DNA of 20,846 bases from a virus. Position numbers and translations under genes: made by a program. This document shows positions 9,016 through 13,449 of this stretch, one piece after another. How positions within the stretch are numbered: the stretch's first letter is position 1; every line of letters starts with the position of its first letter. The notes below the pieces were generated by a model that did not search any database, was not told the origin of the DNA, and saw only the letters and a program-made list of their open reading frames with translations. The stretch is from positions 1-20,846 of the IMG/VR virus record IMGVR_UViG_3300035670_001432. One strand, 5' to 3'.

Positions 9016-11262
9016 TTATATTAGAATACCATATCTTTGTGCATTTTGAATTCTAATTTCTTGAGCAGCAGAAGACACAACTGAAAATGAAGGAACTTTT
9101 GTTTCTGCTGTAAAATTCATAGATTGTTGAGTTTCAGATTGTTTAATTGGAGGAAGAGTTATCATTGCACCAGTTCCTCTTGATCTACTTGGGGGTTCTG
9201 GGACATTAATATTTACTTTTCTTTTTCCTAATTTTGCTGGAGTAGAATTGTTATCTAAATTAGCCGTCAATTTATCAAGAAAAGGGACTCCCAATTTATC
9301 AACAACATCTTTGGTAAGAATATATTCTCCCGGTTGTGCATCAATTCTTTGCCTATCTGCAGTGGCTCCCTTGATGTCTTTTCCAGTATTTTCTTTTATC
9401 AATCCACCACCCATAAAAGGCAAAGAAGTTGGCATCATAAATCCAACAGATTGCATTAATGATGGTTTTAATTTTGGTTTTGGTTCTTTCTTTTTAGTTA
9501 CTCCATATCCAGACTTTATTAATTGATTTGCGACTTTAAATCTATCTTCAAAGTGAGGAACGACTGCCTTTTCATAATCCATCAAGAAAATTTTAGTGGC
9601 TTCTTGAACAGTTTTTGAAGAATTCAATCTGGATTTTACCTTACGATATTCTGGATGATTATTCATTTCATGAAGAATAAAATCAATTTGGGTGGTTAAA
9701 TCATTCCAAGGTTTACTCATTTTCTTGGCAAAGGACAATAGATTAATATTATCAGTATCGTATCTTCCTCCCATTTCCCATTGAGCCAATCCTCTTCCAG
9801 GACCTCCACCCATTTGGCGAGTATTTGGATCATAAGTATACCCAGTTTCTACTCCAATGTTTGCAACGATTCCAGCAGCTGCTTGAGGAGTCATTCCACC
9901 TCTGAGTAGTCTATTATAAATTAAAATTGCTTTTTGATTAAGCAAATTGCCCATTGGTTGCTTTGTTCCAATAGTTCCACCTTTATTAAATCCCACTAAA
10001 CCACCAAATGCTTTTCCTATAATTTTATTTGTAATTGTTTTTGGTTTATTTGCGTTTGGTCCGACATTATATGAAAGTGGGTCAACTCCAGTATCCATAA
10101 TCATTCTTTCACGAGCACCAACTTGAAGAACTGATTCTCCTTTTTGAAGAACTGCACCGCCTCCACCCTCTATTGGGAAAAATTGCGTATCTTGCCCAGC
10201 ACCATCTACTCCGATTCCACTATTCCCATCAACAATTCCACTAAAAATTGAATCAATATTACCACCACTAGAATACAAGTTAGACATTCCTTGCCCAAAT
10301 ATCGCAAATGGAGATCTTTTTGATTTTTCCAATTCGTCCTTTACAACTTCTGGTTGAACTTTACGTCTAGATGCCTCGTTTTCAATTTGTTTTTTTTCTT
10401 CGTTTTGTCTTTGCATTTCGGCACCAAGAGTTGCTGTTCCTGCAATCACTCCAGCGGCAATTAAGGGATTACTCTTCGTAAAAGAAATTAATTTTGGAAT
10501 TGCAAACTTTGCAAGTCTGAGTGTTAACTTAGCAATAGTACCAACAATAGTACGAACGAATTTTCCAAGAGGAGTAGCAAATAATACCCAAGCCCCAAGT
10601 AATGAAGGCCACCAATCTTTTAAAAATCTACCAATAGTTTCTAATTTTTCTTTATTTTTTGGATCAGAAGCCCAATCCATGAACAACTTAAATGCTCTTC
10701 CAAGTAGTGTAAAAGTTATAAATCGAATAATATTGTCTAAAATATTTTGAACAGGCGATAACAATTTTTGTGCTGATTTTACAATATTTTTTCCTGCACC
10801 TTCTAATAACTCTTCTTTTCTTTTTCTTTTTAAATTTTCTTTTGTTTTTTTATCTTCTTGTAATTTTTCTTTATCAATTTTTTCTTGATTTGTTAATGAC
10901 TTTATAATAGAATCCAAACTTTCTTTAATGGGGACAATAGCACCCCTCACACCTTTTAGTTGATCTGTTGATATTTCTTTTGCTGGGGAAATAAGTTTTG
11001 TAGTTGCAATACTAGCAGCAGTTATTTTCTTTTTATTTACTTTAGGTATAAATCTTCCTTCTTTTCCTCTTATTCTTTTTCTTTCATTTGAAAGTAATGC
11101 AAGTTCTTCATCTGGTAATTTATTTTCACCAAAAGAACCTTTAACAATTCTTTCTTTTAATAAAGTAAGATAAGTATCATAATCTAAATCAAAAACATCC
11201 TCAAGACCTAACAGTCTTAATATTCTTTCATCAATAGTTTCGTTAATTGCCCTATCTGCCAT
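9016..11262 (-). CDS. Tape-measure-type tail protein with an embedded tail-lysozyme-like domain (748 aa)
   Basis: Residues 115-155 are a charged coiled-coil-like helix, followed by hydrophobic segments (178-195, 215-245, 262-282) as in tape-measure proteins. Residues 440-585 match the phage tail lysozyme pattern: GGMTPQAAAGIVANIGVETG (candidate catalytic Glu 472), GPGRGLAQWE (488-496), then a helical half ending FEDRFKVANQLI. Residues 615-665 carry the tape-measure-associated GGGLIKENTG and ATADRQRIDAQPGEYILTKD motifs, also hinted at in the 920-aa neighbour. It follows gp26 and the 58-aa ORF, the usual place of the tape measure after the chaperones, and overlaps that ORF by 11 nt. It has no clear Shine-Dalgarno, so it is probably coupled. 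Whether this or the 920-aa protein is the true ruler is open. Confidence 0.7.
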   Translation of the reverse strand: MADRAINETIDERILRLLGLEDVFDLDYDTYLTLLKERIVKGSFGENKLPDEELALLSNERKRIRGKEGRFIPKVNKKKITAASIATTKLISPAKEISTDQLKGVRGAIVPIKESLDSIIKSLTNQEKIDKEKLQEDKKTKENLKRKRKEELLEGAGKNIVKSAQKLLSPVQNILDNIIRFITFTLLGRAFKLFMDWASDPKNKEKLETIGRFLKDWWPSLLGAWVLFATPLGKFVRTIVGTIAKLTLRLAKFAIPKLISFTKSNPLIAAGVIAGTATLGAEMQRQNEEKKQIENEASRRKVQPEVVKDELEKSKRSPFAIFGQGMSNLYSSGGNIDSIFSGIVDGNSGIGVDGAGQDTQFFPIEGGGGAVLQKGESVLQVGARERMIMDTGVDPLSYNVGPNANKPKTITNKIIGKAFGGLVGFNKGGTIGTKQPMGNLLNQKAILIYNRLLRGGMTPQAAAGIVANIGVETGYTYDPNTRQMGGGPGRGLAQWEMGGRYDTDNINLLSFAKKMSKPWNDLTTQIDFILHEMNNHPEYRKVKSRLNSSKTVQEATKIFLMDYEKAVVPHFEDRFKVANQLIKSGYGVTKKKEPKPKLKPSLMQSVGFMMPTSLPFMGGGLIKENTGKDIKGATADRQRIDAQPGEYILTKDVVDKLGVPFLDKLTANLDNNSTPAKLGKRKVNINVPEPPSRSRGTGAMITLPPIKQSETQQSMNFTAETKVPSFSVVSSAAQEIRIQNAQRYGILI

Positions 11263-11428
11263 TTTGTTGTTGCTTGAGTTTTTCTTCCTCTAAATGATTT
11301 TTCAATAAAGCAACATACACATCCCTTTCCCAAGGCATCATATTTTCAATCTCCGTTAATGAGTATTTATGATACTGCATTAAGGCAAAATTTAATTGAA
11401 AATAATTTTCGAGGTCCATATGGACCAT
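11252..11428 (-). CDS. 58-aa ORF in the -1 frame of gp26, probable tail-chaperone extension
   Basis: This short ORF runs from ATG 11428 (or ATG 11419) to TAG at 11252 and overlaps the next gene by 11 nt. The protein is helical and charged: ENYFQLNFALMQYHKYSLTE, then MMPWERDVYVALLKNHLEEE. Neither ATG has a Shine-Dalgarno sequence. The frame is exactly -1 to gp26 and is open back across the slippery heptamer at 11437-11443. It may therefore be made as the tail of a gp26 fusion (238 + 61 = 299 aa), as lambda GT is. Its place matches T4 gene 51 (26-51-27), annotated as a hub assembly catalyst, but it is far shorter than T4 gp51 (about 249 aa), so I leave the symbol empty. Confidence 0.7.
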   Translation of the reverse strand: MVHMDLENYFQLNFALMQYHKYSLTEIENMMPWERDVYVALLKNHLEEEKLKQQQNGR

Positions 11429-11443
11429 GGCTATGCGAAAAAA
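11413..11443 (-). other. Candidate -1 programmed ribosomal frameshift site (slippery heptamer plus stem-loop)
   Basis: In the gp26 frame the last codons read AGT TTT TTC GCA TAG. T_TTT_TTC (11437-11443) is an in-frame X_XXY_YYZ heptamer, two codons before the stop. Ten nucleotides downstream lies the perfect palindrome GGTCCATATGGACC (11413-11426), which can form a 5-bp GC-rich stem with an ATAT loop. Slipping back one base gives CGC ATA GCC ATG and continues without a stop through the 58-aa ORF. All elements are seen directly; use of the site is inferred. Confidence 0.6.
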
Positions 11444-12150
11444 CTTGATAACCCTTCTAAAACAACTTCACTTTCAACTTCTGTTTTTGGATTTGTAACT
11501 TTGACTTTGTGAGAAAGTTTTGGCATTGTCTCAAAAAACTTTTCAATTTGTTTAAATTGCGACGAATTCATTTGATCTAAAAATTCCACTAATTCTTTTT
11601 TGGTCACATCATTTGCAGTCCAAACTTCGTCTTCCGTATAAATTTTATCAATACATGAAGCAATCAAATCAAATGATTGCTCCATATTAGTTTCACCAGA
11701 AAAATCAAAGTTATTTTTAATGAATTGATCCAATGATGGATATTTCATTTCCATCATTACTGAATCATCAACTTTAATTTTTTTATCGTGATTTTTATTT
11801 TTTTGAACTTTAATATTGTCTACATTAATTGAAACAGGAACCGCCGTTTCATTATCATCTGGACAAATAACATTAACTTCTATTTCTTCTCCAACAGATT
11901 TTCCACGAATATTCAGGAAAAGATATTCAATATCGAATGTAGGAAGAGACTCCACTTTAACATTTTTTGTTTCAATGCAATTTTTGATTACTGTTTTTAT
12001 TGCTGTTGTAATCTGTTTAACATCTTCAGATTCTAAAGCAAGGACAAGAAGTTTTTCTTCTCTTACTAAAAAGGGTCTATATCTTATTGTTTGTTCTGTA
12101 GATGGCAACTCAAGATCGTAAGTTGGCGTAGAAATCTTTGGTAAAGGCAT
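11431..12150 (-). CDS. gp26: gp26 baseplate hub subunit / tail chaperone-like protein (239 aa)
   Basis: Similar to T4 gp26 (208 aa; T4 baseplate protein family). The N-terminus, YDLELPSTEQTIRYRPFLVREEK, has the family's 'RPF-VKEEK' signature. It is followed by FDIEYLFLNIRGKSVGE (residues about 73-90), MKYPSLDQF, an acidic helical region with CIDKIYTEDEVW, and the ending RFFETMPKLSHKV...LEGLSSFF (here KFFETMPKLSHKV). gp26 is needed for hub assembly. In other long-tailed phages the gene in this place encodes the tape-measure chaperone. The start has AGGA 6 nt upstream, and a late-type AATAAATA lies 29 nt before it. The 3' end contains a slippery heptamer and may allow a 299-aa frameshift product. 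Confidence 0.85.
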   Translation of the reverse strand: MPLPKISTPTYDLELPSTEQTIRYRPFLVREEKLLVLALESEDVKQITTAIKTVIKNCIETKNVKVESLPTFDIEYLFLNIRGKSVGEEIEVNVICPDDNETAVPVSINVDNIKVQKNKNHDKKIKVDDSVMMEMKYPSLDQFIKNNFDFSGETNMEQSFDLIASCIDKIYTEDEVWTANDVTKKELVEFLDQMNSSQFKQIEKFFETMPKLSHKVKVTNPKTEVESEVVLEGLSSFFA

Positions 12151-12178: not shown

Positions 12179-12186
12179 TATTTATT
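12179..12186 (-). promoter_or_regulatory. Late-promoter-like element AATAAATA before gp26
   Basis: The minus strand reads AATAAATA, one base from the T4 late consensus TATAAATA and within the relaxed NATAAATA form reported for cyanophages. It overlaps the stop of the gp54-like gene. Transcription would start near 12173, about 23 nt before the gp26 ATG. It is AT-rich, so chance occurrence is possible. Confidence 0.4.
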
Positions 12187-12973
12187 ACCCCAAGTTTTGA
12201 TTAATTAAATTTAATTCTCGAAGTGTTCCAGGTCCTGTTAAAGTTCCTCCACCTGTTCTTACAGAAAGATTTTGTTCAAATCCAGTTTGAGCTTGAGTAA
12301 CTAAAGACTCTGTTGGAGCACTAATCCAATATCTGCTGTAAGAAAATGAAACAGTGCATTTTAAAAGATCAGATTGATCATAAGAAACTGGCATTGAATT
12401 TATATTAATTGGATATGCATTTTCAAAATTATAAGTTAATGCATTTCCTGTACCTACTTCAGATAAACTACTCAGATCATAATCTTTTTCAAATTTTGTT
12501 ACTGATAATGAATCTGCATAATAATTTCTTGGATAATTAACTCTGTAGTTGTAATTTTTTTGAGAAACTGGTGTTTTTGCAGTGTATTGTTCATTAACAA
12601 TATATCCAATCCACGCTTCAAAAAATTTAATTACATAATATTGTTTTTGATCGTTTATTGTAACATAAAAAGTAAAGTCTATTCTATCATCATATATTCT
12701 TCTATAAGCATGTTTTTCTGAAACACCATGATAATCATTATCAATATCAATTGTTGCTAGAGATGATCCAGGTAAAGATGCTTCAGCACAAGCCAATGAC
12801 ACGTAATCATAAGTATCATTAGCACCTAAAGTTGTTCTCCACAAAGTCATCCTATTTGATATAAACTCAGTACCAGGTGGTTGAAAGTTGCAAATGTATT
12901 GTGACGTTAAAGATGGTCTTAATAATTTACTTCTAATACTATCAATAGTGTGTCTTTGTACTATTGTTGCCAT
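12185..12973 (-). CDS. gp54: gp54-like baseplate tail-tube initiator, tail-tube fold (262 aa)
   Basis: The pattern is that of the gp19/gp54 tail-tube fold. An N-terminal arm is followed by strands, with PGSSLATIDIDNDYHGVSEKH (residues about 67-88). Then comes a strand-helix unit (DDRIDFTFYVTINDQ-KQYYVIKFFEAWIGYI), which in tube proteins forms the barrel and its flanking helix. A final strand pair is AYPININSMPVSYDQ-SDLLKCTVSFSYSRYW, closely parallel to the LWP...ALDYW ending of T4 gp19. In T4, gp54 sits on gp48 and starts tube assembly. Length (262 versus about 320 in T4 gp54) and baseplate context favour gp54 over the main tube protein gp19. It starts 29 bp from the divergent gp4 gene; no Shine-Dalgarno is clear. 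Confidence 0.6.
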   Translation of the reverse strand: MATIVQRHTIDSIRSKLLRPSLTSQYICNFQPPGTEFISNRMTLWRTTLGANDTYDYVSLACAEASLPGSSLATIDIDNDYHGVSEKHAYRRIYDDRIDFTFYVTINDQKQYYVIKFFEAWIGYIVNEQYTAKTPVSQKNYNYRVNYPRNYYADSLSVTKFEKDYDLSSLSEVGTGNALTYNFENAYPININSMPVSYDQSDLLKCTVSFSYSRYWISAPTESLVTQAQTGFEQNLSVRTGGGTLTGPGTLRELNLINQNLG

Positions 12974-12974
12974 C

Positions 12975-12982
12975 TATAAATA
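12975..12982 (+). promoter_or_regulatory. T4-type late promoter TATAAATA before gp4
   Basis: A perfect match to the T4 late promoter -10 element TATAAATA lies in the 29-bp divergent gap. The predicted start is near 12989, about 14 nt before the gp4 ATG. It would drive gp4, the 157-aa gene and probably gp48 and gp53. Use requires the phage late factors; gp33 is encoded in this window and gp55 is not. Confidence 0.75.
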
Positions 12983-13002
12983 TGTGTACTGATATATTAT
13001 GT

Positions 13003-13449
13003 ATGGCAGAAAGCATCAAGAGTCTTTACAAACCAGAATATCCAAAAAAATATAAAGGAAATCCTAATAATATTATTTGCCGTAGTAGCTGGGAAAGACG
13101 TTTTTGTAGATGGTGTGATCTGAATGAAAATATTCTTGAATGGGGAAGTGAGGAATTTTTTATTCCATATCTTTCCCCAATTGACAATAAAGTTCACAGA
13201 TACTTTCCAGATTTTTTAATCAAAGTAAAAGAACAATCTGGTCAAATCAAAAAATATGTTATTGAAGTAAAACCAAAAAAACAAACTATTCCCCCAGTTC
13301 AAACTTCAAAAAAGAGAACAAAGACATTTATCAACGAAGCAAAGACTTATGCTGTAAATGAAGCAAAATGGAGAACAGCAAAAGAATGGTGTGCTGATAG
13401 AATGTTAGAATTTAGAATCATTACCGAAGAAGAATTAGGTATCAAATAA
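13003..13449 (+). CDS. gp4: gp4 head completion protein (148 aa)
   Basis: Clear relative of T4 gp4 (150 aa), which acts after DNA packaging to make the head ready for tail joining. Shared blocks are YKGNP-NI-RSSWE-F-W-D (residues 17-39), LEWGSEEFFIPY (45-56), RYFPDFLI (66-73), YVIEVKPKKQT-PPV (85-99) and a C-terminal KWRTA...FRIITEE. Residues P69-D70 and E88-x-K90 form a PD...ExK arrangement like that of PD-(D/E)XK nucleases. The ORF is open 39 nt further upstream, but ATG 13003 matches the T4 length and leaves room for the late promoter. The stop overlaps the next start as TAATG, so the downstream gene is coupled. Confidence 0.92.
   Translation: MAESIKSLYKPEYPKKYKGNPNNIICRSSWERRFCRWCDLNENILEWGSEEFFIPYLSPIDNKVHRYFPDFLIKVKEQSGQIKKYVIEVKPKKQTIPPVQTSKKRTKTFINEAKTYAVNEAKWRTAKEWCADRMLEFRIITEEELGIK

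Follow-up and report, generated by a model that had tools for sequence, protein, structure and literature searches.

At the 3′ end of its gp26 gene, a 20,846-nucleotide (nt) viral fragment from IMG/VR (record IMGVR_UViG_3300035670_001432; this whole 20.8-kb stretch is the window below) carries a junction at which, as judged from comparison with its relatives, programmed -1 frameshifting into the gp51 tail is almost certainly real. The genes of the gp26 region lie on the - strand. We propose that some of the ribosomes that translate gp26 would slip back one base at the sequence T_TTT_TTC, with the aid of a Shine-Dalgarno-like G-run located 8 nt upstream and of a stem-loop about 10 nt downstream, and that the slipped ribosomes would continue in the -1 frame through the gp51 tail. 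Two products with a common N-terminus would be generated, gp26 (239 residues) and a gp26-51 fusion (299 residues), which would correspond to gp26 and gp51 of T4, the two hub assembly chaperones. Their action would most likely resemble that of lambda G and GT, so that many short and few long copies would handle the tape-measure or hub proteins at tail initiation and leave before completion. Taken as a whole, from the slip and its stimulators to the T4 counterparts and the G/GT-like work, this is very likely the best explanation. The sequence comparison establishes the arrangement of the two ORFs, the conservation of the site, selection on the stimulators and colinearity with T4, and from these we infer slippage in vivo, a ratio between the products and their action as chaperones.

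The frameshift had been proposed in an initial annotation made from the letters of the window, and all its base-level claims were correct. The TTTTTTC run is in frame as (AG)T_TTT_TTC and is followed by GCA and by the gp26 stop codon TAG; the palindrome GGTCCATATGGACC starts after a 10-nt spacer and is predicted to form a 5-bp stem. The 58-residue open reading frame (ORF) that follows is in the -1 frame, which is open across the slippery site, no Shine-Dalgarno-like 4-mer was found at either of its ATGs, and the fusion would have 238 + 3 + 58 = 299 residues. In the messenger RNA sense the junction reads GAAGGG TTATCAAG T_TTT_TTC GCA TAG CCAT GGTCC ATAT GGACC. The match of gp26 to the PF12322 profile covered the full model, and in a profile search the 58-residue ORF matched phrog_634, "baseplate hub assembly catalyst" (E 3.8e-28). 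The same ORF also matched columns 240-280 of phrog_150, hence phrog_150 contains natural in-frame gp26-51 proteins.

Relatives were gathered with three divergent queries and one KVP40-type query, plus isolate phages; a mixed 15-sequence gp26 alignment was unable to seed the collection scans, and single proteins were used instead. Frames were counted where gp26 was closed and a gp51 tail could be detected, five T4-type loci being counted separately. Relative to gp26, the gp51 tail was in the -1 frame at 252 of these 253 loci and in all 28 gp26 clusters (<50% identity), and the same frame was seen in 7 further isolates, so that the -1 relationship noticed in the window is kept across many T4-like phages. 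An in-frame T_TTT_TTN was present in 25 of the 28 deep clusters, and in 113/113 of the T6-site clusters (90% identity). Other Phe-Phe pairs of the same genes took the form T_TTT_TTY in 3/120 cases, and at the sequence level the heptamer is conserved beyond a mere conserved Phe-Phe. Since only 4 in-frame T_TTT_TTN were found in the 5467 codons of the - strand genes of the window, and since the site is conserved across relatives, it is more than a chance occurrence. The codon before it varies (AGT, AAT, TCT, GAT, GCT, CAT, ACT) and encodes Ser (by AGT and TCT), Asn, Asp, Ala, His or Thr, with T always as its last base. The T run comprises 6 or 7 T, most sites being six T then C, and the position of the heptamer relative to gp51 is fixed even where the gp26 stop has moved up to 10 codons downstream (loci L195 and L221).

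We then consider the candidate stimulators. A folding scan, in which 40-nt windows were slid across the region (n=113), gave a sharp energy minimum directly past the heptamer (mean z -1.89), with the adjoining offset at -1.32 and the other offsets mostly between -0.6 and +0.7. When compared with random synonymous recodings that preserve the -1 protein, the natural sequences gave a mean z of -2.23 (p 7e-17) over all clusters and of -0.97 (p 0.012) over the clusters below 50% identity, the latter figures being safer, because related sequences are non-independent and the p-values overstate certainty. The stem was also favoured over the recodings in the window clade (mean z -1.27, p 6e-7, n=32) and in the S-CAM4 clade (mean z -3.73). 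The -1 peptide ALFHNTLEGY of the S-CAM4 clade has two synonymous codings, each with its own stem register: in one (GCA CTC TTC .. TTG GAA GGG) the TTC and GGG codons are invariant, and in the other (GCC CTC TTY .. CTA GAG GGN) the TTY and GGN codons are not part of the stem and are variable. In the window clade, GTC was found with GAC in 17/17 cases and ATC with GAT in 5/5 (p 4e-5). The hairpin of the initial annotation is therefore conserved in kind, through register shift or covariation; the exact palindrome was rejected as a conserved signal, since it is missing from many relatives, which form another stem or use another register. As for the upstream element, the Glu-Gly codons 8 nt before the site carried GAGG or AGGG in 49/56 clusters, versus 31/97 elsewhere in gp26 (Fisher p 1e-11). 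These substitution patterns indicate that in the window clade both the G-run and the downstream stem are under synonymous-site selection. The G-run is not universal at deeper divergence, and a universal Shine-Dalgarno-like stimulator was rejected, as 36/113 clusters have none within 25 nt upstream. Separately, a secondary folding minimum (mean z -1.0) was observed about 100-140 nt past the heptamer, inside the gp51 tail and over the conserved MMPWER codons.

In T4, genes 26 and 51 are separate and divergently oriented. T4 gp26 matched the whole PF12322 model (E 8.8e-64), residues 1-201 of T4 gp51 matched the full model as well (E 3.9e-52), and residues 147-246 of T4 gp51 matched phrog_634 (E 1.2e-23). 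Our own gp51-tail and gp26 profiles were built without any T4 sequence; the tail profile found residues 207-246 of T4 gp51 (E 3e-7), and hhalign aligned the marine gp26 profile with T4-type gp51 at 97.1% probability (E 6e-11, gp26 21-238 with gp51 13-200), the alignment ending at the slip-site Phe. From these matches, and from the alignment ending at the slip site, T4 gp51 is the counterpart of the predicted fusion, encoded in the zero frame, and T4 gp26 that of the short product; this link to T4 is stronger than the initial annotation knew. The 3′ end of T4 gene 26 reads GAG TTC TTT GAG, in which the heptamer is absent, and T4 gene 51 has its own ribosome site, AAGGAG. In a tree, T4 gp26 and the gp51 N-domain each formed one group, and the two grouped together with weak support (82/44), which does not date the split between the genes. 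We favour, as a likely course of events, an ancestor of the T4 superfamily (cyanophages, the Aeromonas, Vibrio, Stenotrophomonas and Rhizobiales T4-likes, and probably the Ackermannviridae) with a lambda-type frameshifted gp26/gp26-51 pair. In the Tevenvirinae the gene would then have been duplicated and the long form fixed in a single frame, so that 26 and 51 became separate essential genes. Two further observations concern these proteins: many non-cyanophage gp26 (e.g., loci L086-L094) and T4 gp51 carry CxxC pairs like a zinc ribbon in the C-terminal half, which are lost in the gp26 of the window, and in one IMG/VR sequence (L107, 3001-3746) a frame change interrupts a T4-type gene 51, which ends after about 120 codons; this may be an assembly error.

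The fold of gp26 was analyzed on an AlphaFold model with a predicted local distance difference test (pLDDT) score of 86. With VIA-align 2, residues 1-86 aligned with the HK97 tail assembly chaperone (2ob9_A, Z 7.9, 84 residues aligned, root-mean-square deviation 3.8), and the N-terminal domain model aligned with 3fgx (Z 8.2) and with YqbN (3klu, Z 7.3), which we take to belong to a tail-chaperone family; 5ir0 followed (Z 5.2), and unrelated chains scored at most 4.2. Among viral models, gp26 matched the "baseplate hub assembly catalyst" of Acinetobacter phage ZZ1 (E 2.5e-5). The N-terminal ~90 residues of the gp26 model would thus have a tail-assembly-chaperone-like fold, a likeness that is supportive but not proof, because Foldseek on its own gave nothing significant against the PDB for gp26 or for the T4-type gp51 model. 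The chaperone fold of the T4-type gp51 N-terminus is unconfirmed by structure, since VIA-align gave nothing above Z 4.2 with that model. A PDB sequence search with gp26 found no relative, and NCBIfam gave no sensible match.

These data bear on a reading in which the frameshift is real and its products are hub-specific, with no mechanistic kinship to lambda G/GT. Such a reading, which we consider unlikely, would agree with the report of T4 gp26 as a possible hub component (PMC3004832), with the lack of a Phage_TAC Pfam match for gp26, and with the fact that Z-scores of 7-8 can reflect a common arrangement. However, the HK97 chaperone and two small phage-type proteins head the fold list, well above the unrelated rows, the gene order (tail tube, gp26/51, large tail protein) follows that of V-G/T-H, and a review of the T4 tail names both gp26 and gp51 as hub assembly chaperones and describes gp51 as an essential protein of unknown function that is not present in the particle (PMC3004832). 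We consider a chaperone role of gp26 and gp26-51 like that of G/GT to be quite probable. The putative link to the lambda system drawn in the initial annotation rests on synteny, on the -1 architecture and on the predicted HK97-chaperone-like fold.

Could gp51 be made separately, by reinitiation or translational coupling at an ATG near the gp26 stop, with the T-run as an incidental feature? An ATG does lie 2-5 nt past the gp26 stop in the window and in many relatives, TAATG/TGATG overlaps are present in Vibrio, Stenotrophomonas and Rhizobium phages, and annotators list the gp51 tail as its own gene. However, 32/115 clusters (~28%) offer no ATG, GTG or TTG upstream of the tail domain in the -1 frame, so that frameshifting is the only evident route to the tail in these lineages. 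A further 30/115 clusters have only GTG or TTG, 39/115 have an ATG that lacks a Shine-Dalgarno-like 4-mer, and in only 14/115 does such a 4-mer accompany an ATG. Phages Aeh1, 65, S13, phiAS5 and AS-zj have no start codon for the gp51 tail, and Aeh1 and S13 have no annotated gene between gp26 and the next large gene. Separate initiation would also leave the invariant heptamer, the hairpin and the constant -1 frame unexplained. From these sequences, it cannot be the general mechanism, although it is possible in the window itself, and as an account of the junction we judge it highly improbable. Transcriptional slippage in the T6 run is the least credible account, close to negligible: the site is indeed a homopolymer of 6 or 7 T, but such slippage normally requires longer runs, most sites remain six T then C with no lengthening, the codon phase of T_TTT_TTC is preserved, and the downstream stem and upstream G-run suit ribosomes.

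Several points weigh against ribosomal frameshifting as the general explanation. Three Ackermannviridae-type lineages (phiA8-29, phiMAM1 and K357) have no T6 heptamer, with the -1 frame kept. In Synechococcus phage S-SCSM1, the sole frame exception, the heptamer is retained and 11 nt inserted past the gp26 stop put the gp51 tail into another frame; the related phage S-SCSM2R follows the -1 rule. Apart from these four, the contrary results listed in the initial annotation (a missing heptamer, a different frame or a good independent ribosome binding site) were not encountered. Folding was not significant in the phiM12-type group (z -0.28), nor for the hairpin of the window sequence alone (z -0.85), and the window has ATGs that would permit a possible weak separate initiation. 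The identification of the gene after the gp51 tail as a tape measure is weak, and the case for slippage is a comparative one. That comparative evidence nevertheless supports the interpretation put forward in the initial annotation. Two observations belong with the exceptional phages. In S-SCSM1 (L082, 3715-3740), the cause could be a sequencing error, separate initiation or another kind of shift; in the Ackermannviridae-type loci L089, L091 and L093/L271, NTT TTC stands before the gp26 stop, and 2/3 lack any start codon for the gp51 tail.

With frameshifting as the preferred reading, some earlier statements can be understood. In a comparison of 26 T4-like genomes, the gp51 of cyanophages was only ~20% of the length of the others, cyanophage and marine vibriophage gp51 was without its first ~200 residues, and gp51 was missing in Aeh1 (PMC3037559). 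The first ~200 residues would seem to be absent because the missing part is gp26, and gp51 would have seemed missing in Aeh1 because its tail has no start codon there. A 2016 recoding review described G-T frameshifting as widely conserved "except T4" (PMC5009743), which would follow if T4 gp51 is the zero-frame form and T4 gp26 the short form without the heptamer. If the proposed history is true, T4 would be no exception to the universal chaperone frameshift, gene duplication having replaced the frameshift. No previous description of a gp26-gp51 frameshift came up in the literature that could be searched, which omits most subscription papers. Gene annotation is affected in hundreds of genomes from an abundant group of ocean viruses, and hub assembly becomes testable through the ratio of the two predicted products.

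Table 1. Features of the gp26/gp51 junction and flanking genes in the window.
Feature	Position	Strand	Evidence
gp26, 239 residues, short product	11431..12150	-	PF12322 T4_baseplate E 4.9e-77; phrog_150 E 2.8e-82
Zero-frame gp26 stop TAG	11431..11433	-	sequence
Slippery heptamer T_TTT_TTC (predicted slip site)	11437..11443	-	sequence; conserved in relatives
Candidate Shine-Dalgarno-like stimulator GAAGGG, 8 nt upstream of the slippery site	11452..11457	-	G-run enrichment
Predicted stem-loop GGTCC-ATAT-GGACC, 10 nt past the heptamer	11413..11426	-	predicted fold, recoding test, covariation
-1-frame extension (RIA + 58-residue ORF 11428..11252), gp51 tail of the putative 299-residue fusion	11252..11437	-	phrog_634, phrog_150
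Next gene, 748 residues, tail-lysozyme domain, tape-measure-like position	9016..11262	-	PF18013 E 7.6e-29; phrog_9570 E 1e-13
Tail tube protein, gene preceding gp26	12185..12973	-	PF23849 E 6.8e-15; phrog_45 E 2e-30

The 748-residue gene overlaps the gp51 tail by 11 nt and is tape-measure-like in size and place, and its phrog_9570 match is only through the lysozyme part. A promoter and terminator scan gave no more hits than expected by chance. Elsewhere in the window, two tandem paralogous genes on the - strand (624-1313 and 1316-2092; 41% identity over 172 residues) have the motif RLRH-C-EGP-VY-RG in common, and on the + strand a divergent ORF (12964-13449) starts with TTG inside the 5′ end of the tail tube gene; its equivalents in relatives are annotated as a head completion protein or a TnsA-like endonuclease.

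Among the known systems, T4 is the nearest, as its gp26 is homologous to the marine gp26 and its gp51 aligns colinearly with the fusion predicted for the marine phages; it differs in having two divergent genes without a slippery site, with strongly diverged N-terminal domains. The E/E+E' genes of P2 and the corresponding genes of Mu are myovirus tail chaperone genes with backward frameshifting, which in P2 occurs on a T-run, and the likeness of gp26-51 to them, drawn from general knowledge alone, is this backward frameshifting in myovirus tail genes. In Escherichia coli dnaX, a Shine-Dalgarno-like stimulator ~10 nt before the heptamer A_AAA_AAG and a downstream stem-loop are combined; the two stimulators resemble those proposed here, but the dnaX shift leads to a shorter product, whereas that of gp26 would lead to a longer one. 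With lambda G/GT, the gp26/gp51 pair would share a short protein with a rare -1 extension and a common N-terminus, a heptamer near the 3′ end, a place between the tail tube gene and a large tail gene, and a chaperone-like N-terminal fold, as predicted here. Unlike in lambda, whose slippery heptamer is G_GGA_AAG, the heptamer is T_TTT_TTC, the shift would occur at the last codons of a larger protein (~240 residues) with an added beta-rich C-terminal half, and T4 encodes the long form in a gene of its own.

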